Assembly: GCF_036417845.1 (NCBI RefSeq)
Contig: NC_089981.1
Location: forward strand, 38,446,668 to 38,510,667
Direction of reading: 5' to 3'
DNA: 64,000 bases
Source of the DNA: Apteryx mantelli
Lineage: Eukaryota > Chordata > Aves > Apterygiformes > Apterygidae
The notes under the pieces were generated by a model. The model made no database searches. It was not told the origin of the DNA and worked only from the letters and a program-made list of their open reading frames with translations. The position numbers and the translations under genes were made by a program. Positions 24,644-61,900 of this stretch are shown here, in pieces; the first letter of the stretch is position 1, and each line of letters starts with the position of its first letter.

Positions 24644-25139
24644 CTGTAAAAAGAGAAGTACGGTTTTTAATGCTTATATCCGTATGCAGCTCATGGTACA
24701 CACAAGCAACTCCTGCAGTCAAAAACATTCTTTATCATTTCGGGAACACAACTGTCCATATTTAGAATTATGCCACAGCAATAATTTCAAATAAGACGCA
24801 TTTATGAAGATTTGGGTATTTTCAAACAAGCTTATAATACTTTACCAAAAACAAGGCACTTCACAATCCAGCTTAATACCTTTACCAGAAGAGCCGCGAT
24901 CGAGGGGCTCGGCCCGTCAGGGAGAAAGAAGGACGAAGAGGGCTCCCGCCGCCGCTCTCCCCCCCGCCCCTTCCCCGGCTCGCCGCCCGCCGCCGGCCCG
25001 GCCCGCACCGCTCCCCGCAGCGCCTCTGGCCGCCCCCTGCCCGGGCGACCGTTACCCGCGGCGCGCTGGGAACCCGCTCCGGCCCCGCCGCCCCGTCCCG
25101 AGCCCCGCCGCCCGGCCGAGGCCACCGTGCCGGCCCCAC

Positions 25140-25198
25140 CTCTCCTCGGCCATCACGATGTCGTCAAACATGTCCGCGCTGGACGCGGCCGCCGCCAT
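25140..25198 (-). CDS. LTO1: LTO1 coding exon 1 with start codon
   Basis: ATG at 25198-25196 lies in a good context (G at -3 and +4) and opens MAAAASSADMFDDIVMAEER, leaving through the donor GAGAG|GTGGGG in phase 2. The motif 'D(M/I)FDDIVMAEERF' with the exon 2 junction (R-F-H-G) matches the N terminus of LTO1 (human 'DIFDAIVMADERF'). Exons 1-4 give 118 residues; human LTO1 has 137, so only the short terminal exon is missing. Exon order, phases and the CCND1-LTO1-FGF19 synteny agree. Confidence 0.94.
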
Positions 25199-25445
25199 CG
25201 CGCCGCGAAAGCCCAAGCCCCGGCTCCGCGCCGGATGCGTTCCGCCGCCGCTCAGCATGCCGGGAAAGGACAGCAAGCCGCAGGGCCACAGCCGGGAGGC
25301 TCCAGGGCGCAGGCGCGCAAGACCCCCACCCAACCCGGGCCGGCCCTCCAGCTGCGAAGGGGCGTGGCCCAAGGGGGTCCAGCGTGCGCGATGGGCGGGG
25401 CCTCCCGCCCCTCGCCCCGCCCCCCGCCCTGCGTCCGTCAAGATC

Positions 25446-25465
25446 GGGGGGGGGGGGGGGGGGGG
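25446..25465. repeat. Homopolymer G20
   Basis: Twenty consecutive G on the + strand sit inside the LTO1 CpG island, upstream of LTO1. It is likely length-polymorphic and sequencing-error-prone, and can form a G-quadruplex on the + strand. Confidence 0.98.
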
Positions 25466-26720
25466 CTGTGCGTAGGTTCGGCCTGTCGCGCCTCGCCGCC
25501 TCCGGTGCGGCGGTGCCTGGTCCCTCCTTCCTGTGCGAGTGGCTGGGCCGGGGTCTGCGGGGCTTCGCGCGGGCCCTCCGGCACCCTCTTCCCTCCCGGT
25601 GCCTTGCGGTTCCAGCGCCGGTGGCGGGCTTCGTCCTCGCGGGCCGCCCCGCGGGCGCCCAACGGCTTCTAACGGCCGCGGCGCGGGGCGCGCGCCCCAG
25701 CGGCCGGCCGCGAGGCGGTGCGAGCCGCGCCAGGGGGCGCCAAAGCGCTGCGGCCGCCGCGGGATAAACCGCCTCTCTTGTGCTAAGTGGGTGGAAGATA
25801 CGTTTCGTTATCACGTTAACTACTGGAAAGCTAAACCTCGGCCTAAAGTAATCTAAGACGCGGTGCTTAACTAAGATTTTGTCCAAAGCTCTGATATCCT
25901 CCAAGTGTAATGAAAAGTCTGATTGTTATCGAAAGCCGTTTGGAAGTTTTTCATCCAAATGAAAACAGTTGGTATCCTGAATACTGCCTTCATAACTGAG
26001 AGGATAGATTATGACTGCTGAAAGGCATAATGTGTTATCTAAATTTTATAAAATGTTCAAAGTGAATCTTATACCTTTTCTCAGCAAGGTGGGGATTGAT
26101 TCTTAGTTCCTAGATGAGAACTTACAAAGCAACAGCTGTACCAAAAGACTTGCTTATATAAGGCAGTCTCAACTCCCTGCAATGAGATCTATGCAGGTGT
26201 GCTGAAATAAGGTTGATTTTGGTTGGATGCCTCTGAGTACAGGTAGATACTCTCTGGATTTAATTGTAGGATTGATTTCCCCAAATTACTTTGCTTTTAA
26301 AAGAGATCCATTTGAAAGCTTATAATGTATTTCCTAAAGACTATAATTCAGTAGATTTTTTTCATTTGTCTTGTTTGCTTGTTAGGTCAAGATGAGTAAG
26401 AGAGGGGAAACTGTTTATACCAAATAATTGCGGTATTGCTTTCCTGTCCTTTCAGTTCACTTCACTTGGTCGCACTTTCTCTAAGGCTTTCAGACCTCTG
26501 CGGTAGGCAGAGAAGCAGTACTTCCTGGAAATTGCTTCCTCTGCCCAAACTTAAGCCCTGGAGCTTCCAGAGCCTGGTTCAAAAGGCTTGTTTAATCCAG
26601 TATTTGCCTTTGGTTTTGTCCAGGAATTTACCACTACATCTTTTTAATGGCTATTAACCTCATTCTTATAAAGCCAATATACTTTTGCTGGTTTACAGCC
26701 AGGGACTATGATATTTAGAT

Positions 26721-30520: not shown

Positions 30521-32039
30521 AGGTTTTTGTGTTGAAGATGATTTTTTTATTGCAAATGTACATGTTACACTACTGATAATATACAGAAATTTAAAAAGCT
30601 ACTGTTTCATGATTACAAAACTTCACGAAATTTGTTACAACTAAAAAAATCCACCTTCAAGAGTATATAAATAGAATTTTGAGCATAAATAATAGTAACA
30701 AAATAAACAGATGTATGCATTCAATAAATTAATTATAAATATTGCATTGCCAATGAAGTGCTAGGTCAGAAGAATGCTACTGTTTCCAGCAGAGTTTTTT
30801 TTGTATAGAAATCTGTTATAAATGAACCTTTAGAAAAGAGTAAAATCCCTGAACCTTTTTCCTCACATTCCTTTTTTTGGGTGGGGTTTCAGGTTTGTTA
30901 TTCTTTTGTCAAATTGTTGCAATAAGAGAAGTGAACTGAAGGTATCAGACGTCCACCTCTTGGCCATAAGGTACCCACAATCTTTCCTTGCAAGGTGAAT
31001 GGTATGACTGACCCAGTTCTGCAGCATTCAAGTCACTAAACTGTTTCTCTATTGATTTCAGCTGATGCAGAATCAAGCCTGGAAGGCCTTAAAGGAACTG
31101 CTGATGTTTGAAGGTAAAACATGAAAACTTATTATGCAATCGATTTGACCTATACATCATCCATTTTCAGTCTTTTTCTCCATTTGCTAAAGACATATAC
31201 ACTTATATACAACAGAACTTCTGTTACTGAAGACTAGTTTGTTGGTACTGCTCATTCCCTACCTGATGAACATAAATACTGGGTCCTGTATACACTTCTA
31301 CCCATGTATAGATTTCTCACTAATGTTAATGAGGAGTCTATATTGGATGATGCAGACCCCACAGTAAACATAAATTAGCCTATAAAGGAAATCAAAGATC
31401 CAGTTTTCCAAATTACCCCTTAGCAATAAGGGAAGGAAGAAATATTTCCTTTTCTTCCCTTATGTCTTAAGGGAAAAAGAAACACAATATACAAGCAGAA
31501 TGTTTTTCAGTGGTATGCTTTCAATAGAAAGTTTTCCCAGAACATTGTCAGCAGCTTTTCAAGGGACAGCATTTACTCTAGTTCACATAACCACATTTGC
31601 TAGGTCTTCCTTAATCCTGTTTTCTTCCAAATGTTTGTCTTTAAGGCCTATGAACCTAAAAGATCATTAACTTCCCTGTGAATGAAAAGCATTTGCTACA
31701 TTTGCTCCTATGAGCAAAAATAACAGGTGAACATATGTGGTAATGAGGTTGGTATAGAAAAATTATAATAATTTTATCATCACCACTGTAATGGGGTAAC
31801 TTTGGTGAATTGTTTTTTCTTATTTAATCTTTTTTTTCCCCCCAAATAAAGTATGGATAGGGATGCAATCCTCTAGAATATAGCCTCTGAGCAATCATAT
31901 CTTCCAGGTATAACACATTGCAAGGAAAAGGCTGGCTCCATACTTAAATACAAAAAAATGTTCAAAATACTAGTACATGAAAAGCTAAAAACCTGTAGTA
32001 TTCTGCAATATTTCTTTTACACCATGTTTGTAATTGGAG
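30521..32039 (-). other. FGF19: FGF19 3' untranslated region
   Basis: About 1.5 kb downstream of the FGF19 stop (- strand) is AT-rich, without coding potential, and ends at an AATAAA (30546-30551) with the expected cleavage zone just below. No earlier hexamer is evident between the stop and this site. The extent is inferred from the signal alone. Confidence 0.55.
30546..30551 (-). terminator. FGF19: Probable FGF19 polyadenylation signal
   Basis: The - strand reads TGCAATAAAAAAATC. This canonical AATAAA lies about 1.5 kb after the stop codon and is the first one met downstream of FGF19. Confidence 0.5.
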
Positions 32040-32372
32040 TCATTTCTGAAAGCTCGGGCTCTTCACTGGAGACAGTTTGGAGGTGAGTCCAAAGGGATCC
32101 ATGCTGTCGGTTTCAAGAGGTGAGGAGTACATATCTGATTCGAAAGCCTGGCTATAATCACCATATTCACCAAAGTCTGTTGACTCCACAGGCACAGTGT
32201 TGATCATAGGTAAAAAGTGAGATAATGGAAGAAAATCTTTTCCCTTGAACTGCTGTCTTTGCTTGGCACTGCTCAAAGACACGGAGATCCCGTGTTTCTT
32301 TGATTTATATACGTTGTAGCCGTCTGGGCGTATCTCCTCTTCAAAGGAACAATCTTCAGTAGAATACCTGAG
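32040..32372 (-). CDS. FGF19: FGF19 exon 3 (C-terminal 110 residues)
   Basis: The acceptor CCCTTCAG precedes CTCAGGTATTCT and the exon runs to a stop at 32042-32040. It starts LRYSTEDCSFEEEIRPDGYN, continues with VYKSKKHGISVSLSSAKQRQ and FLPLSHFLPM, and ends SPLETDSMDPFGL then SPVKSPSFQK. The first half completes the beta-trefoil core; the tail from about residue 60 on is the FGF19-type extension that binds beta-Klotho. EEEIRPDGYNVY and SPLETDSMDPFG are diagnostic of FGF19 as against FGF21 or FGF23. Exon 3 joins exon 2 in phase 0, giving a protein of 223 residues (78 + 35 + 110). A diverged second copy of this exon lies upstream in intron 2. Confidence 0.97.
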   Translation of the reverse strand, partial: LRYSTEDCSFEEEIRPDGYNVYKSKKHGISVSLSSAKQRQQFKGKDFLPLSHFLPMINTVPVESTDFGEYGDYSQAFESDMYSSPLETDSMDPFGLTSKLSPVKSPSFQK

Positions 32373-35300
32373 CTGAAGGGCAGGGAGGAAAGAAAATTAC
32401 AAACATGCCCACGGGCCCTATGCCTGGCAGCTGCCAGCATAGAGGCGCAAGGGGGCTGGCAGGTAGGATGCCGGCCCTCGCCATTGCTCCGGGGGCAGCT
32501 CTTTCCTTTACGGACCACAGCCACTGAGACCAGCCTAAAGCTCCCCATGTTGCATGTAGCATGCATTTTAGATTATGAAGCCATTAAAAGAAAACATTGG
32601 CCTAATCCAGAACTCCTCAAGTTAATGTATGTCTTCCCATCCTCTTAAATAATGCAGGGTCTGTGCTTCCACACATACTCTTGCTCTGAACACAGAGAAA
32701 AAACATCTCAGTTGCCAGTGCTCCTTCAGATAAACTGCTGTTAATTGCTGGCAGTATTTAACTGCAGTCATGAGACCTAATCCAATAGTCCTGAAGTATA
32801 AAACCCTAGTTCTATTAGAGATTTGCTTAAAGGCCTCAGGTTCAGGTCTGTAGAAAGGCATCACTATAAAGGACAGCACTTCACAAACATGTCAGTCAGT
32901 AAAAATATATTAAAAAGGTAACTGCTAATGTTTTTACTCAGCATTAATTGAAATTCCAAAAAAACTAATTAATGCAGTATTATTTTCCCATTAGACATTA
33001 CTTAGAACTACACATTTTGTAACAATGTGAGTTCAGATTTTTTATAGAAGAATATATTTTCTTAGGTATGAATTCGTAGAAATGCATTTATGATATACTG
33101 CACATGTAGTATATTAGGATTTTGTATCACGAGGTCAGACCTTTCCAGATCCTTTACATAATCACTGTATTTCTTACAGCTCTGGTGTTATTTCTGGCTC
33201 AGCTATTACAGGTTTTTGAACTCTTGGTTAATAAAAACCCATTGCTGATTATATGTCGGTCATCAGTGATAAAAGTGTTCTTACATGAATGCTCTACCTG
33301 TCTAAATTTAACTTAGAATATAGCTGATACTTTTAAGTCCTTTCTCAAACACCAATGATACAGAGTACAATTAAGTGTGAAATGGGTGCCTTTTTAAAGG
33401 CACTTTTTAAACCATTTAAGTAATTCACAAAAAAGCATTTTCTGCAAATTATACAATATTTATCCTTCAACACACAGTATATCTTGGAAGACTGTATAGG
33501 ATACAAACTGATGGTTCAATTGTTATCTGTCCTTATTTCTATGAGTGGTCAGCCTCACTGATGACAGTGATGAAATAAAAAGGCTTCTTGAGCAAGTGTG
33601 CATTACAAATCACAGCAGTTATTGATTATGCCCCCTCATATCTCAACTATATCAACTATATGCTATGTATATAATATGATAATATTAAGAAGTTACATGG
33701 TTTCCCCTAACCTACAGGAATTATGAAAACAGACTACAGCACACTGCATGTTTGAAATCAACTTTAGTCATCACTTTTCCCGTGTCAGAAAAAGGCACGT
33801 CAGGTACCACATTTGCCCTTTAGTTCTTCCACTCCTGAACACAGTGCTGATAAGGGTATGAATTTCTCCACAGAGCTTGTCTGCCCTGGCTGATAGTGGA
33901 GGGGTGATAGCAGGTGTTGTGAACGACCCGATTTCTCACTCTCAGCCTGAACTGGCTACAGTCTCAGCCAGTGTTTCTTTGGCACTCAGAGGGATATAGT
34001 TAGTGTAGCGGTACACACTGGAAGCCATTTCTTTCTTACTTCCAATAACACAGGCAGATCTCAGAGCAAAGAATCTATAGGAGAGGGGAACTGCATCTCA
34101 AGAGAACGCTTTTCTTTATGTGTCTAATTCTGCTCACTTCTGTGAATGTTGTCACTGAAGTCAACGAAACTATGTTTGAGAATAAAACATACAGAACTCA
34201 TCCACAATGCATAGATCTGATGGCATGGATACATGTCATTATATTTTCAAAAAAACACGTAATTAATACATCAATAAACAGTCTCAGTCAAGGGTTATTC
34301 ACAATCTTTCAAAATGCTGTTATAGGAAAGCTATTTTAAAATTGTGCAACCACTAAAGATCCAGTCTGCAGCTCCAGTGGGAGTGGGATCCAGGCTTTGC
34401 TTAGTTTTCACTGATCATTTTGGTTTGGATATACATTAAAACTTTAAGCTAATAATTCACCTACCGTCCAGACCATCTGAACCTCAAGATCTGTGCACCT
34501 TATCAGTGCACTGATTTTCTGATTCTAGCCAAGAAAAGCAAGGAAATGCAGAAAAAAGACTTCATCCTATGTTATGGACTCAAGCAGTAATCTCACTAAA
34601 TCATTCCGGCTCTTATTAGAGATATTGGGAGTTTTGACAATGGGCCAAGTCGTTGCCCTATTGAAATCAGCAGAAATTTTGCCAGCGTAATCAAAGCAGA
34701 GTAAAACAGTGTATATACTATGGCTGGTAAAAAAATACTCCCTTCTCTCTGTGAAACCTCAGGTTCCTCTAAAGCAGTTACACAAAAACTGAACTTGAAT
34801 CTCACCCTTTAAATTCTAGAGTTGGCAACTTACTTATGTTACTTACAAAGCCACAGTTTATGTCGCTGATAATATTCAGCTGATAGGCTGATACAGTAGG
34901 TGAAAAGCATGAGCTAACAACATTGCATCAGACGGTCGCTAAACTTCTCAGCCTCTAAGTGTCCCACGAGTGTGCTGCTGCGGGTCTCAAGACCAAGTGA
35001 GACAGGGGAGGAGAGTCTCTCCCCCCGTAGTCCTGTTTCTGTCTGATACTTAAGGAGAGAGCAACCCCGCCTTGGTGGGACGTGCATACATGGGAGCCAT
35101 GTGGGCGCACCTCCTCTCCCAAGGAGCACTCTTCTTCGGAGTACTTAATCGGAACAGCAAGAAACTAATTAAAGGAAGTGTGTATAATTCGGGCTATGGG
35201 CTGACTTAATCTATTTCTGTGGCAGAAGCAACCCCCCCCCACCGATAAGGGTTTTTAAACATAAATGAAATTTTGCTCTATATTGTCTTTTCAGTCTCTT

Positions 35301-35578: not shown

Positions 35579-35682
35579 CTGCCCGTGCAGCCGCCCCGCC
35601 GCGTCCATGCAGAGGTAGCGGGAGCTCCGCACGCCCTTGATGGCCACGGTGCGCACCGCCACGGCGCGGATCTCCAGCAGAC
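35579..35682 (-). CDS. FGF19: FGF19 exon 2 (35 residues)
   Basis: The exon is bracketed by CCGCACAG on its 5' side and CAG|GTGAGC on its 3' side. Its 104 nt is the usual length of the middle coding exon in FGF genes. It encodes SLLEIRAVAVRTVAIKGVRS then SRYLCMDAAGRLHGQ, the central strands of the FGF beta-trefoil with the conserved YLCM. Phases are 1 in and 0 out, compatible with exon 1 and with either exon-3 copy. Third positions are almost all G or C, unlike exon 3, which reflects the CpG island. Confidence 0.96.
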
Positions 35683-35775: not shown

Positions 35776-36010
35776 TCTGCGGGCTCTGGCTGCCGGCGCC
35801 GTCCACCCGGCCGTCGCTGCCGATCCTCAGGAAGTAGCTGAAGAGCCCTTGCTTGCTGGCGGTGTAGAGGTGCCGCAGCCGTATGGGCTCCCCCCAGCCG
35901 TAGTTCACATGGGGGCCGGCGTCCGATAAAGGCAGCGACCTGGCCCCCACGGCCAAAGCGAGCCCGAGCAGCGCCAGGGAGGCGGGGGACTTGCCCAGGC
36001 GCTCCCCCAT
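35776..36010 (-). CDS. FGF19: FGF19 exon 1 with start codon and signal peptide
   Basis: ATG at 36010-36008 has A at -3 and G at +4; the upstream in-frame codon at 36046 is GTG, so this is the first ATG. It opens MGERLGKSPASLALLGLALA, a signal peptide with hydrophobic core and likely cleavage near VGARS, then PHVNYGWGEPIRLRHLYTA and GLFSYFLRIGSDGRVDG, the first strands of the FGF core. GPHVNYGWGEPIRLRHLY is diagnostic of FGF19/FGF15. The 235-nt exon ends in phase 1. FGF19 is a secreted FGF with weak heparin affinity; it signals through FGFR4/FGFR1 with beta-Klotho as a bile-acid-induced gut hormone and acts in otic, eye and forebrain development in birds and fish. Confidence 0.97.
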
Positions 36011-54870: not shown

Positions 54871-57800
54871 TACAGGTTGCTATAGAGCTGTGAATGCTGT
54901 ATTTTTCTGAGAACCTTCAGTACAGCATATAAAGAACCCTTGCCAGTTATGCAATACATGTGTATTCATGATCTTCAGTTCATGTGCTCCTCCCTTTTAC
55001 CAGGCATATATCCTTTACTGCATTCCTACTAACACAAAAGAAATCTTTTTAATTGATGGTCACATGTAAAGGCAATTCTATTAACACAGCAACTTGTACA
55101 GATACATGCTTGACTGTGTCCCTAGGAAATCAGTAGACATCTGTAAACCTAATGGGACTTTCTGCAGAATCATAGTGACAGTGTTTGATACTCCTATGAA
55201 TAGAACCAGAATAAATAGGCAAGCAGATACATATCTGCATCCCTATTTTTTTTCAATTAACCTTTGGAGAGTGTAAACAATGAACAAATGCAAATTTATA
55301 CTGCGTGATCTTCCAAAATTATAATGGAAAGAAACCTGAGACTTACGTGGCCAAGAGGAGTGAACATGAATATTTTGACCTGCCACTGTGATACTCTGGT
55401 GGCTGGAGCTGAGTAGCTAGATCAGCCTGTGGGAACACATAGAGCTTTTTGTTAAACACATCTATTCCTTATTTGTGCATATGTTCACTTTGCTTTAAGA
55501 GTCACTAGGTGATTACAGCAGAATATGTTTATGACTATTTACCTAAAATTAACTGTGGTTCATTTGATAACTGCCCTGGTAGCCTTATTTATTTTCTATG
55601 ATTGTTCTGCAGAAGAGCAAGAACTCAGTGAGCTTTAAACTAATAATGTAGAATATGCACCCAAGTAGGTGCATACCCCCATTCTGCGGGGTCACTGATT
55701 CACCCTCACCTGACTTGTGAGCACAAATTCACCATCAGACTTCTACAACCAAATAAAGCAACCTGTATTTCAAAATTTGAAACATCTAAGTCTCAGTGAT
55801 CTGCTCTCATCTGAACTATGAGCCAAGAACTGACTGGTGAACCTTTACGAGCAACTGACACATGCATTATTGGTTTACGAACAAAAAGGAAGCAAAATGG
55901 AATGAGTTACCTCGCTTGTTATGGGTTATTCATCCAACTGTCCTGTTAACTAGTGAAATATTAGGAGATCCTTTTTCCACCAGTTTTGTCCAACTAGTTA
56001 AAACTTAATGAAAGAGGTATTTGTTGATTTTTTTCAGCCTTTATTCACAAAACATTTCAACTCATCCATTTTTCTGTTCTCTGTTTTTGCTGGTTACCTG
56101 TGAATAGTTTGCTAAGGCATAAAGGGTCTAAATAAGTCGTAATGATTTAGCATATGTGTTAATTATTCTACTGAGATCAATCTAGGTGTGCACAGTAATT
56201 AGCAGAATAATAAAAGGTAGAATAATTAGCACCGATGAATCTAAAACAAGTAACTATCTTGGATGTAATTCTAGCATTATTAGAATAAAGATTTATGACA
56301 GACACTACGTTTTTGAAATTCAAGGTCAAAGAATTTAAATTTTATCTTATTATGTAATGTTTTAGGTATTTATAGATTTGTCTTTAGCAGCATCTCTGTA
56401 TTCAAATTTTTAAAATGCACTCACTATTTAACACAAAGCTATGTCTAGAGATGCCCTCTATTTAGGCATTTCTCTGCCTAAAATACACTTTGCTTTGATT
56501 ATTCCATCAAGGCATACCTTCACTGTATGACATAAGACTATCATAATGGTATTTATAACTTACATAGAGCTATAAATACATAAGTGCTTTTGCTTGATCA
56601 TGCTAAGCATATTAAAAATCCCTGCCCTGAACTGCCCACACTGTGAATACACAAAACAGATATGATTCAATGAATCATGTCTGATATCATATCAGTGAGC
56701 GCTTGTACTTTATGTTTTTCTGACACTTAATGGTCTCACTCTGCTTTCATTACAGTTTGTGGCTGACTTACCTTGCTCTTTGCTGCCATAGTGAGGCCAC
56801 AGCTTGCTGAAGGCTGGTCTGGGCATCCCTACACAATGCAGCTGCTGAAACTGGACAGCAACTTTAAGCCATTCAGGAGACAACCTGTGAAAGCCTGGGA
56901 GGAAGGAGACGTGTGAGTGAAAATAAAATATGGACAAGGGAAAAGTTCTGCAGTAACCTGAAAGCAAGCTTGAACTTGATGCAGATGACAAAGACTGAGG
57001 GCAAATCCTGATCAGAAGAGTAAGCAAACAAACCTATCCTGACGACAGTGTAACAGATAGTCCATGCACATCAACATCTGCAGGAAGGAATCTGAGTCAC
57101 AGGGTCAGATATAGACATAAATTGCTCCCATGTTTGTGGAGTTTGCTTTGACCCATTACAACTGCAATATCCAGGTACATGCCTGGGTAAAGCTAGAGTG
57201 TCCTTGACTGGCTTTGGCTTCACTCAGATTAATAAGGCCTCAAGAATAAAATCTGACAAAAATCTTAGGGAAAGAGAAAGGGTAGAAAAAGAAGGCACAG
57301 GAAGGGAGGGCGAGTGGAGCTAACATAACTAAGAAAAATAAGAAAAGAGGAGTATGAAATGGAAGCATGAGTATGAGGGGGAAAAGAGGAACAACAAAAC
57401 CAGAGGAAAAGGTGTCAAAAATGGGAAGTGTAGAAGAAAGAGTGATGCCATATTGAACGGGAAATATTTCTGGGCACAAGCAGCTCAGGCAAAGCTGGGA
57501 GGAAGAAGTTGCTCACGTGCATCTTCTTTTGTGGTTCCTGCCTGGGTCCCGACCTGCCTTTCTGGGCTGGTGGTACCATTTCTCCGGCACAGGCATGGCA
57601 GGATGGCTGATGTGGCCGCACAGGGGGAACCCCCAGCACTGCACGTCCACGTCCAGGGAAACCACCAAATCTGTATCAAACCTCACTGAAAGGACAGACA
57701 CCAAGAAAAACCCACGCTGACTCCAGATCAAGACCACATGGATGCGATACCAGTCTAACCGCCCCGGTTAATGTTTAACTCCTTGTGGAGGAGCTCCTAC

Positions 57801-58029
57801 ATGCAGCAGTGCCGGGCTTTCCCACAACAGCCACCTGAGAGGGCCTGGACAGGGAAGGAGAGTGCCGGGGCGTCTCAGTGCCCCCTTGCCCGCCGGGCAG
57901 TGCGGGGCTGCCCTGCTGGCCAGCGTTGACTGGGGAGGGAGACAGGGGGAGGTGCCGGCCCCCACGGCCTGCCGCAGCCATGCTCTGCCCTCCGGATGCT
58001 GCCGGCGTCGGCCCCTGCGCCAGGAGGGC

Positions 58030-58372
58030 GCGTGAGGAGGAGGAAGGAAGCGAGGAGGAGGAGGGAAGCAAGGAGGAGGAAGGAAGTGAGGCACAGGAAG
58101 GAAGCGAGGCAGAGGAAGGAAGTGAGGAGGAAGGAAGTGAGGAAGAGAAGGGAAGCGAGGCAGAGGATGGAAGCAAGGAGGAAGTGTCACCGAAATAAGG
58201 AAGCAAGGTGAAGGAAGGAAGTGAAGTGGTGGAAGGAAGCAAGGAGGAAGGAAGTGAGGCAAAGGAGGAGGAAGGAAGTGAGGAAGAGGAGGGAAGTGAG
58301 GAGGAAGGAAGCAAGGCAGAGGAAGGAAGCAAGGAGGAAGGAAGCGAGGAAGAGGAGGGAAGCGAGGCATGC
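58030..58372. repeat. GGAAGGAAGYGAGG-type polypurine minisatellite
   Basis: About 340 bases of almost pure purine on the + strand are built from 15- and 18-base units such as GAGGAGGAAGGAAGY and GAGGCAGAGGAAGGAAGY, with one interruption at about 58186-58197 (GTGTCACCGAAA). Unit lengths are multiples of three, so several frames stay open on both strands (glutamate/glycine/serine on +, serine/leucine/proline on -), producing a 374-codon open frame on the - strand (57775-58899). I see no gene signature and treat the frame as a by-product of the repeat. Confidence 0.93.
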
Positions 58373-58920
58373 CTGGCCTTCCCGCGCTCCCAAGGAAGCG
58401 ACGGAAGCAGCGAGGCTGCTGCCGGTCCCCCCCGCCGCTGCATGCCCCACTGCGGCCCGTTTGCGTAAGTCGAAAGTGGGCCCTGGCTGCGGGGTGCCAG
58501 TGTGCAGCCGCCCCCGTCGCCCCGTGCTGAGGCTTGGCCATCAGTGCTGGTGTTCCCTGGTGAGGGCTGGCCACCTCGCCGCACTGGCAGGGCGCAGCCC
58601 ACCACAGCCTTCATGCCGGTAAAAGGTCTCCTGAAAGGTCCAAAGCAGTTGGCACGCTCGAGCACCCAAGCTGGCCGAGCAGCACAGCAATGCATTTTTT
58701 CCTCTAAACTTCCCCCAAAAGCCCCCTGCCAGGCAGGGGTCCCGGCAGCCCTGCTCCCTGGTGAGTGCCCGTCCCCGTGCACCACTCCTGCAGTGGTGGG
58801 TCCTCCCTGGCCGTCACAGGCACCCTCTACCCCGACATTAAACAGCTGTACCAGCCTCGCTAACATTGCAAACACCCTCCTCGGTGGCACCAGGAGCAAA
58901 CAGATGTAGCTGCGGAGATG
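58373..58920. other. GC-rich segment beside the minisatellite
   Basis: GC-rich, moderately CpG-rich DNA flanks the polypurine repeat (also 57540-58029 on the other side). Long open frames on both strands have low-complexity or family-less translations. It may be a GC-rich island or an old minisatellite-associated hotspot; no exon recognised. Confidence 0.45.
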
Positions 58921-61900
58921 ATGAGAAAGGATATAAACAGCAGCTCACCAGAAACCACAGAGTTTTACCAAGTGGCTTTGACACTTGCCAAATACCTTTA
59001 AGCCGATAAAGATCCGATTTGTACTTCAGAGGTAACCTGATTAGCAGCCAATTTGAATCTGGAATATGTTAATTGGTACAAACATCACTAAATCACTTTC
59101 TTTAACCTATATGAAGTAGTGTGAATGAGCGATAGTGAAGGTCAACGCAGCCTGGGGAGTCATAGAAAATGATTACTTGTGTATCTACCCACAATAAAAT
59201 AGAAGGATTAGTAATAAAATGTAATTGTATGTGCACACAAAAAATTACACTGGAAGGTATCCAAGGTCAATCCAGCACTGTGAATTTAAGAAAAAAACAA
59301 ATTAAATCTTCCCATACAAGCAAAATCTAGTCAAACACCACCCATTTTGTCAGGATTCCTGCCTCACTCAGTGTCCAATATAGACAGGGCTCACTAAATG
59401 AGCACCTATTCCTTGTTTTATTTCATTCAACAGGAAGACTTATGGCTTGTTCATCACACAGTCTGAGGAAAGAAATGTTTGTTTTCTCATAAGCTTTCTA
59501 TAGCTTTCATAAGTTCAGTATCTGTGTGCCTCACAAATATTAATAGGTATTAGCATAAGAATGGATATATTTTGAATACTTTAGTGACAACTTGGAAATG
59601 GTAGCTGAAGCACAGAGACATTAGTGTTGAAAAGGTGCAGTAATGTAAACTGCCTAGTCTGAAACCTTCCTGACATGTTATTTCATAGTGATTGTCACTG
59701 CCAAGACATCATTTATGTTCACCGTGCGGCATGGCTGATTTCAGTTTCAGATGCTCACCATATTTGCCAGACGTCGTGGTGTCAGGCTGGGCATTCAGAA
59801 AACAAAGCCAGACCATTTGCTGCAGTATATTACTGGCATCATGTGGGAAGCTGGTGGCGGAGATGACACCAACATCTGATTCTCCAGGGTGGCACTGGAC
59901 TAATTCTGCCTTGAAAACCTTTCATTCACTTTATACTTTCTGCTGCCATAACAAAGCAACTAGGGATCCTATACACAGCTGCCTCCTTCATTCCCCTCAC
60001 TTGTGTCACTCCCAGCACAGGACCGTTCCTTGTGCTGAGTGAGGCAGGGGTCCTACTGAAAAAAAAGCAAGTGATGATGTACTGAGGCATAATGCATATA
60101 TGCCAAGAAAGTGAATTTGTGTTCTAATGTTAAATTCTAAGAAGCATTCCTGCTTACTTGGACGTCTTCCCCCCAGAAATCTCCATACTTGGTCAAATGT
60201 ACACATATCTCTTGCAGATGAAAAAGAAGCATTTTCCTAACACCAGACTGACTGTCCACACTAGTTCAGGTTGCAGGTCCATTGGCAGCATGAGGCCTTT
60301 ACAAGCAATTGTTCTCAAAATTCAGCTTAACATGGACAAAACATGTCTTCTGCTAATCTCATTCTCCAAAGGGGTTGCAGAAGTTCTTGAAAAAAAAAAA
60401 AATCCTAAATTGTCAGAAACCTTTGTCCAAATCTGATAAATCTTTAAGTATCTATAAATAATCTTAAAAAGGAAGGATTAATGAATCTTTTCTATAGACA
60501 GCATTAACCAGCTTTTTTTTAATATAAAATGAAGCATGATATAATAAAATGTCATTTTTTAAAAAATAAGTAATTGTCGACCTGAAGTGACTGACTGCAG
60601 GCATTTCTTGGCGCAGTATTAAACTGTTTTTTTTGAGTAATCAATTTAAAAAAAAACAAACAGGGCAGGGCAGTATTTCTCATTTGAAGACCATAAATCA
60701 TGGCAGATGCACAGGACACTGGCATTGTGCTGTGCCTTCCTTTTTCATGTTGTATTGCCTGAAAACAGCTGGGTATTACAACCTTTCACTATTCCCTCCA
60801 TGTTTCAATTACCTGGTAAAAAGCAAAAAACCCTGTATTTTTAGCTTCAGACAGAGTTTTCTACATTAAAAAGCTGTTCTTCTCATCTGTGCTTTATAAG
60901 CAACAATAATTTGTGTAATATAAAGGGAGATGCAGTATTTCAGGGAATTCCTTTTAACTTTCATACTGAAGTGCTTGGTAGCCTTTATCAAAAGACTCCT
61001 CACCCCTTAACAGACTCTCTTTAATTGGCCACTTGCATGGTCAGTTAATATACTGCAGTAGAAACCAAGTGGTAAAGTGTGAGCAACTGAATCTGGTACT
61101 ATAAACTCAGTGACCACTCTGAAACCTATGGCTATTTATATACAAGCCAGTGTTTTGTCATGCTGATTTTTATTAGCACAGATTAGATACAGACAACTTG
61201 GTAGATGTCACAGAGGAGTCAGAAAATGTTAAGCACAGACCATTTAAGACAGGCAAGTCTGCAAATGGGTGATGGTGCGTGAAGCCAAGTGTCTCCTCTG
61301 CCACTGGCAAGTGCCCAACTCTGCCTGGGCACTCCATCAAGGATGCAACCAGCCACCACGATATCTGCCTATGGGCCAGGACTGGCACTGGTTCCCTTGG
61401 TTTATCTTACGTGATGGCTGGACCACCAGTCTGATGTGGGGTGAAATGTGCCTGGCTTACAGAAGGGGTTAATCCACTTTCAGGAAAGATTTCAATAGTT
61501 GTTCAGTGCAAAGAAATGTTTGTCAGAGGATGCCAGAAGCCCTGGGCATGCCTGGAGCCTAGCAATGCTCCCAGTGATTTCAGAAATGCAGCACAACATT
61601 GTATACCATGGCAGTTTATTGGTGTTAAAATTCACTCTCACCTTCAGTGAGTTTCTTTCACTACCTCCAAAGGCAAAGGGAGAAAGGCTGGGTTAGCAAT
61701 GAAGTAAAAACAGGTGATGCTAGAGGAGAAAGAAAAGTTCTCAAGAGTTCTCTGCAACATCTCAAGCTACTCCCTTTGCGGTGGCAACAGGCTCTTTAAT
61801 CTTCCTGTGGGTAAGACAACTACTGAATTCATGCAATACAACTATTCTGGGTGCTATGAACCCACAAAACCACCACGCTGAAATCTCACCTTGCTAAGAG

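Follow-up and report, generated by a model that had tools for sequence, protein, structure and literature searches.

Full-exon duplication events affect about 4 to 7% of vertebrate genes according to the available text of the Exonize report, which also finds that the number of genes carrying partial, inter-boundary, or intronic events is significantly larger (PMC12343006). Tandem exon duplications missing from annotation, some of them expressed, are likewise described in the accessible part of PMC9013439, whose main text makes no mention of FGF. The exon structure of FGF19 is simple: the available text of a chicken FGF survey gives three exons and two introns (PMC9996274). The last of these exons has a special role, and in the part of PMC4586497 available to us, the FGFR-Klotho binding site is placed in the C-terminal tail. 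FGF19 signals through this Klotho-binding tail, and a duplicated last exon offers an obvious way to arrive at a form that lacks the tail and is not endocrine. In the literature covered, in part and mainly outside subscription journals, we found no duplicated exon in FGF19.

Here, we analyze a second, diverged exon 3 in intron 2 of a bird FGF19 gene. Our preferred reading, to which we give a probability of roughly 78%, is that it is an ancient tandem duplicate of exon 3 which has decayed into a fossil exon and is not a working alternative ending.

The FGF19 gene and its neighborhood

The window, by which we mean the whole stretch of 64,000 nucleotides analyzed, lies on a contig of 90.8 Mb (C4) and carries a complete FGF19 gene on its minus strand. 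The coding part of exon 1 (35776..36010) begins with ATG GGG GAG and matches human FGF19, and exon 2 (35579..35682) is immediately followed by the donor gtgagc. Functional exon 3 (32040..32372), also on the minus strand, is preceded by the acceptor ctgcccttcag; its coding part (32372..32043) includes the full C-terminal tail and ends at a TGA stop (32042-32040), with poly(A) signals further 3' (ATTAAA at 31828 and AATAAA at 30551). The product of 223 residues matches human FGF19 in PDB with an E value of 5.6e-81. The gene that hosts the exon 3 copy is probably the FGF19 hormone gene of this bird.

Two further FGF-like loci lie nearby, both on the minus strand like FGF19. An FGF4-like exon (C4:38512156-38512338) is found about 1.5 kb past the window's right edge; farther along the same contig, at approximately 38.546-38.550 Mb (locus C4:38540000-38549999), is an FGF3-like gene. 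We name both from their likeness and take them to form, with FGF19, the conserved FGF19-FGF4-FGF3 cluster order. Within the window, a GC-rich region on the minus strand (25055..25807) holds a frame, MAAAASSADMFDDIVMAEERW, that resembles the first exon of LTO1 (ORAOV1), a usual neighbor of FGF19, and is named from this likeness. A long repeat tract with minus-strand frames rich in LPSSS and LPPCFLP (57778..58944) is probably a minisatellite.

Whole-genome searches covered an assembly of 1.504 Gb in 408 contigs. With exons 2 and 3 of FGF19 as the query and an E value threshold of 10, ten places were listed, of which the best candidates were scored. The FGF loci that were aligned resemble FGF23, the FGF4/6 types, and a paracrine FGF on contig C15. 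No FGF21-like locus was among them, two of the ten listed places not being included. This agrees with the absence of FGF21 from birds reported in the available part of PMC4586497, yet the evidence is weak because the best candidates alone were scored and two listed places were left out. A single cytochrome b match was listed in the assembly (C5:76869236-76869688), and it is broken by four TGA codons and one TAA. In the mitochondrial code, TGA also codes for tryptophan, which touches the four TGA codons of this copy. This cytochrome b match is probably a nuclear fragment, and a mitochondrial contig may be missing from the assembly.

A diverged copy of exon 3 in intron 2

An earlier note on this DNA had claimed that a minus-strand frame of 62 codons at 34955..35143 is a diverged copy of FGF19 exon 3. 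The frame is present, with 62 sense codons at 34958..35143 and a stop at 34957-34955, and it begins 436 bases past the end of exon 2 (35579), close to the distance of about 430 bases first given. The note's count of 15 identities among 31 residues at the start of functional exon 3 is also correct. The homologous part of the copy extends over codons 1 to 51 (35143..34991), from YSEEEC to PPLSHLV. When the copy, YSEEECSLGEEVRPHGSHVCTSHQGGVALSLS-IRQKQDYGGRDSPPLSHLV, is aligned with functional exon 3, YSTEDCSFEEEIRPDGYNVYKSKKHGISVSLSSAKQRQQFKGKDFLPLSHFL, 24 of 51 codons are identical in residue, and one codon is deleted in frame. The FGF signature GYNVY (motif GYNxY) reads GSHVC in the copy and is thus broken. 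The copy keeps six of the nine sites that are identical across human FGF19, the window FGF19, FGF21, and FGF23, and, over that stretch, 7 of 15 other sites at which human FGF19 and window FGF19 agree; both counts are small.

The copy is homologous to FGF19 exon 3. Its BLOSUM62 score against that exon is 123. The runner-up among 2912 frames of the window scores 43, and 20000 residue shuffles reach 51 at most. In a second test, with 2000 dinucleotide shuffles, the best score was 50 against 119 for the copy. A phmmer search of PDB at an E value of up to 10 returned three distinct sequences, all of them FGF19, the best at 3.6e-6.

Profile searches agree. Our main exon 3 profile was built from human FGF19, FGF21, and FGF23 plus the FGF23-like exon of this genome, leaving out the genome's own FGF19, and it finds the copy at 32.0 bits (E 5.2e-8). 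The background was real DNA, namely 8856 six-frame segments from the window and 200 kb of flanking sequence, and its maximum was 8.4 bits once the copy, functional exon 3 of FGF19, and the exon of FGF3 (16.9 bits) were set aside; the profile comparison that the earlier note had proposed thus comes out clearly on the side of homology. When the profile is built from human FGF19 and window FGF19, the copy reaches 45.5 bits; with a wider set of eight FGFs, it has 21.2 bits (E 1.3e-4) over a background of 11.7. Pfam assigns the copy to no family; functional exon 3 taken by itself likewise stays under the Pfam cut-off.

Searching the whole genome with the copy at an E value of up to 0.001, with three candidates scored, recovers the copy itself and functional exon 3. 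In the search with exons 2 and 3 of FGF19, the copy comes out ahead of the FGF23-like locus, with an E value of 1.5e-6 against 0.0013. As expected, scans with functional exon 3 found no relatives in collections of viral and genome contigs without vertebrates. A protein tree groups the copy with FGF19 and places it, at 40% support, outside the pair of bird and human, which is too little to separate an origin before the bird-mammal split from one after it. At the 12 sites that differ between human and window FGF19, the copy agrees with the window at four, with human at three, and with neither at five.

Splice acceptors and poly(A) signals

The former acceptor region of the copy (35144..35152, minus strand) has changed. 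CCG (35152-35150) stands where exon 3 has CAG, and ATT AAG is aligned with CTC AGG. The replacement of CAG by CCG and the in-phase AAG at 35146-35144, both described in the earlier note, are seen directly, and the AAG is a candidate acceptor. We add a second in-phase candidate, a TAG that follows CTTCCTTTAAT (35165..35184, minus strand); splicing to this TAG, which ends at 35165, would put FLAVPIK ahead of YSEEEC.

These sites bear on the possibility that the copy remains in use as an alternative last exon. Spliced at the AAG (35144) or the TAG (35165), exon 2 would lead into a predicted FGF19 of 175 or 182 residues without the Klotho-binding tail; the shorter length is the one already put forward, and the sum (113 + 62) is right. 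Such a putative tail-free FGF19 could perhaps act as a local signal, as a decoy, or as a means of lowering output. We consider present use unlikely, even though the 62-codon frame is open in phase 0, its only codon deletion is in frame, and two in-phase AGs lie upstream. The ancestral acceptor is gone, and the GYNxY motif is broken.

The 3' side tells further against it. An ordinary last exon requires a poly(A) signal. The rest of intron 2 between the copy and functional exon 3 (32373..34954, minus strand) measures 2.58 kb and has no canonical signal, AATAAA or ATTAAA, on the gene strand from 34954 to 32373; the rarer variants AATATA and CATAAA are present. The lack of a canonical signal between the stop of the copy and exon 3 weighs against use as a last exon. 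Use as an internal exon, with splicing for example to GTAAGT at 34846, would introduce a premature stop. Among the matches listed for a two-sequence profile of the Klotho-binding tail, none lies at the copy.

The same 34954..32373 stretch is fairly AT-rich, and a rough estimate predicts a few AATAAA or ATTAAA hexamers where there are 0. Premature poly(A) signals in intron 2 have perhaps been selected against.

Coding constraint, present and past

Differences between the copy and exon 3 number 15, 14, and 28 at codon positions 1, 2, and 3, respectively, over 51 codons. An excess at third positions is possible even for a neutral copy, because the functional exon contributes mostly third-position changes. 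We rely on a three-branch codon model in which seven values of omega were compared and the third tip consisted of human amino acids, not human DNA. Omega 0.1 fell below the best value by 3.75 (clock) and 4.09 (no clock) log-likelihood units at kappa 2 and by 3.81 (clock) and 4.23 (no clock) at kappa 4, so that strong coding constraint on the copy would fit poorly. Omega 1 is not rejected, twice the log-likelihood difference being 3.2 (kappa 2) and 1.5 (kappa 4) with a clock and 0 and 0.1 without; this, too, argues against a working exon.

The open frame is less easily explained by neutrality. For a neutral copy with 0.42 substitutions per site, the probability of no stop in 52 codons is 0.14-0.19, and that of neither stop nor frameshift falls to between 0.04 and 0.0007 at assumed indel ratios of 0.03-0.10. 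In the copy, the homologous stretch of 52 codons is free of stops and frameshifts, which counts against the fossil-exon account. In forward simulations with equal clocks, the observed differences together with an absence of stops arose in at most 1.4% of neutral runs, compared with 27.5% at omega 0.5 and t 0.7 and 20.9% at omega 0.2 and t 1.4. This preference for relaxed constraint over neutrality speaks for a working exon. When results were averaged over t, a past in which the copy was coding for half or more of its life fitted better than neutrality from birth in 30 of 32 cells; the advantage ranged from 1.6-fold to 45-fold, with a median of about 5. In the other two cells, where the copy was coding throughout at omega 0.1, the fit was poorer than under neutrality.

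These figures come from 1500 runs per cell in the forward set and 300 in the t-averaged set, with chosen acceptance windows of +/-3, equal clocks, and indels ignored, and the neutral reference cells of the t-averaged set rest on few accepted runs. Ascertainment also enters, since the open frame helped to draw attention to the segment. The models are consistent with a copy that was not dead on arrival, may have been coding for part of its life, and would now be decaying. The hint of constraint in the earlier note is weak but keeps some substance: a coding past fits better under equal clocks, strong constraint at omega 0.1 is disfavored, and without a clock there is no preference.

The note's tail-free truncated isoform is not supported in this light, as the ancestral acceptor has gone, the copy is followed by no canonical poly(A) signal, and omega 0.1 is worse by 3.7-4.2 log-likelihood units. 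In a related scenario, which also seems improbable to us, the copy would be an alternative last exon of great age, possibly predating the bird-mammal split, that mostly served as an ending without the Klotho tail and is still spliced at a low level or was lost recently. If this were true, endocrine FGF19 would once have had a built-in non-endocrine form.

Origin of the copy

The old tandem exon duplication proposed earlier is supported by the PDB, genome, and profile matches, all of which lead to FGF19 exon 3. The simplest origin would be a tandem duplication that placed a second exon 3 in intron 2, since the copy lies on the same strand and in the same gene and is homologous from the exon boundary onward. 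Its 30 upstream bases are somewhat more similar to the functional acceptor region than expected by chance, 4.8% of 3000 random stretches scoring as high. This upstream flank is a pyrimidine tract and scores -13 against the end of exon 2. Downstream, no clear alignment was found between the flank of the copy and that of exon 3.

A larger event is conceivable, in which exons 2 and 3 or the whole of FGF19 were duplicated in tandem and the present gene joins exons 1 and 2 to the exon 3 of the other copy. We regard this as quite unlikely. It would be supported by exon remnants in the intron, and three candidates came up. An exon-2-like stretch, LIEIRTDNN*TISLYPIQSSKIYCV (33545..33471, minus strand), scores 40, which 1 of 300 intron shuffles equals. 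A frameshifted tail-like stretch, LVGHLEAEKFSDRL (34970..34929), scores 38, equaled by 1 of 3000 shuffles. Human exon 1 scores 48 at 35008..34904, and none of 6720 background segments reaches this value (top, 46).

However, exon-2 and tail scores of like size occur elsewhere in real DNA, and neither stretch is among the matches listed for the exon-2 and tail profiles. For the exon 2 remnant, 20 neighboring 10-kb stretches contain one other segment scoring 40 besides the true FGF3 exon; a human exon 2 query gives 35 in the intron, a score equaled by 27 of 6720 segments; and the stretch is absent from the best 14 profile matches and the best 8 minus-strand matches in the window. We reject this candidate. 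The score of the tail-like stretch is equaled by 2 of 726 window frames and 4 of 6720 neighboring segments, and the bird tail query yields 16 to 20 there; we set this candidate aside as unproven. A gapped match to the human tail (33967..33818) scores 40, but by profile it reaches 5.0 bits with an E value of 13. The human exon 1 match is taken as chance because it lies inside the exon 3 frame of the copy and the bird exon 1 query gives 26 at that place; it shows that short queries can mislead. In the intron, the window exon 1 query scores 32, which 125 of 300 shuffles equal.

It is very improbable that the copy is a 5'-truncated retrocopy of FGF19 mRNA inserted into the gene's own intron, although exon 3 is the sole exon sequence attached to it. 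The copy begins at an exon boundary after a pyrimidine tract, with no exon 2 sequence upstream, and an upstream flank that is acceptor-like rather than exon-2-like speaks against this origin. Moreover, the copy lies on the gene's own strand. Retrocopies usually retain the 3' end, and the copy has no visible tail.

Tandem duplication of exon 3 thus remains our preferred origin, and the history of the locus may be pictured as follows. Long ago, a tandem duplication would have taken in a segment with FGF19 exon 3, so that exon 2 was followed by two versions of it. The one nearer exon 2 may have stayed coding for some time. Its acceptor would then have been lost as CAG became CCG, and with it the Klotho-binding tail and whatever canonical poly(A) signal was present. 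Today, the copy would be a fossil exon, apparently out of use and spliced out with intron 2, while normal FGF19 is made from exons 1 and 2 and the downstream exon 3.

Age of the copy

In the omega 1 fit, the branch leading to the copy measures 0.40-0.43 substitutions per site with a clock and 0.33-0.36 without, and a coding past would raise these values. The neutral rate in birds is about 2 per thousand sites per million years. At such rates, we infer an age of some 150 million years or more, and an age this great is also suggested by the retention of the residue in just 24 of the 51 codons. A fossil as old as it appears would be expected across birds generally, at least as ruins.

Persistence of similarity at such divergence, together with the fact that FGF loci contain intronic enhancers, might suggest a regulatory element (enhancer or splicing control) reusing exon-derived DNA, but the 15/14/28 codon-position pattern is not expected of an element acting at the DNA level, and we give this idea almost no credence.

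Comparison with known systems

Over 51 codons, the copy is clearly homologous to FGF19 exon 3, an exon of the endocrine FGF subfamily, from which it differs in having no detectable Klotho-binding tail, no ancestral acceptor, and no intact GYNxY motif. The open frame of the copy is a caution for gene predictors, since it could be mistaken for an isoform. If the copy once worked, it would make the step from a duplicated last exon to a tail-free form testable.

As far as the available texts describe them, the degenerate or unannotated tandem duplicate exons reported previously (PMC12343006, PMC9013439) are of the same nature: exon-like intronic sequences that lie beside their parent and are detected by similarity. 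The FGF19 copy differs from ordinary tandem duplicate exons in being a terminal exon with a stop codon, and for this reason, it could not have served as an internal exon of the usual mutually exclusive type. The copy in intron 2 of FGF19, probably a fossil exon 3, is a real instance of an ordinary kind of duplication in an unusual place.
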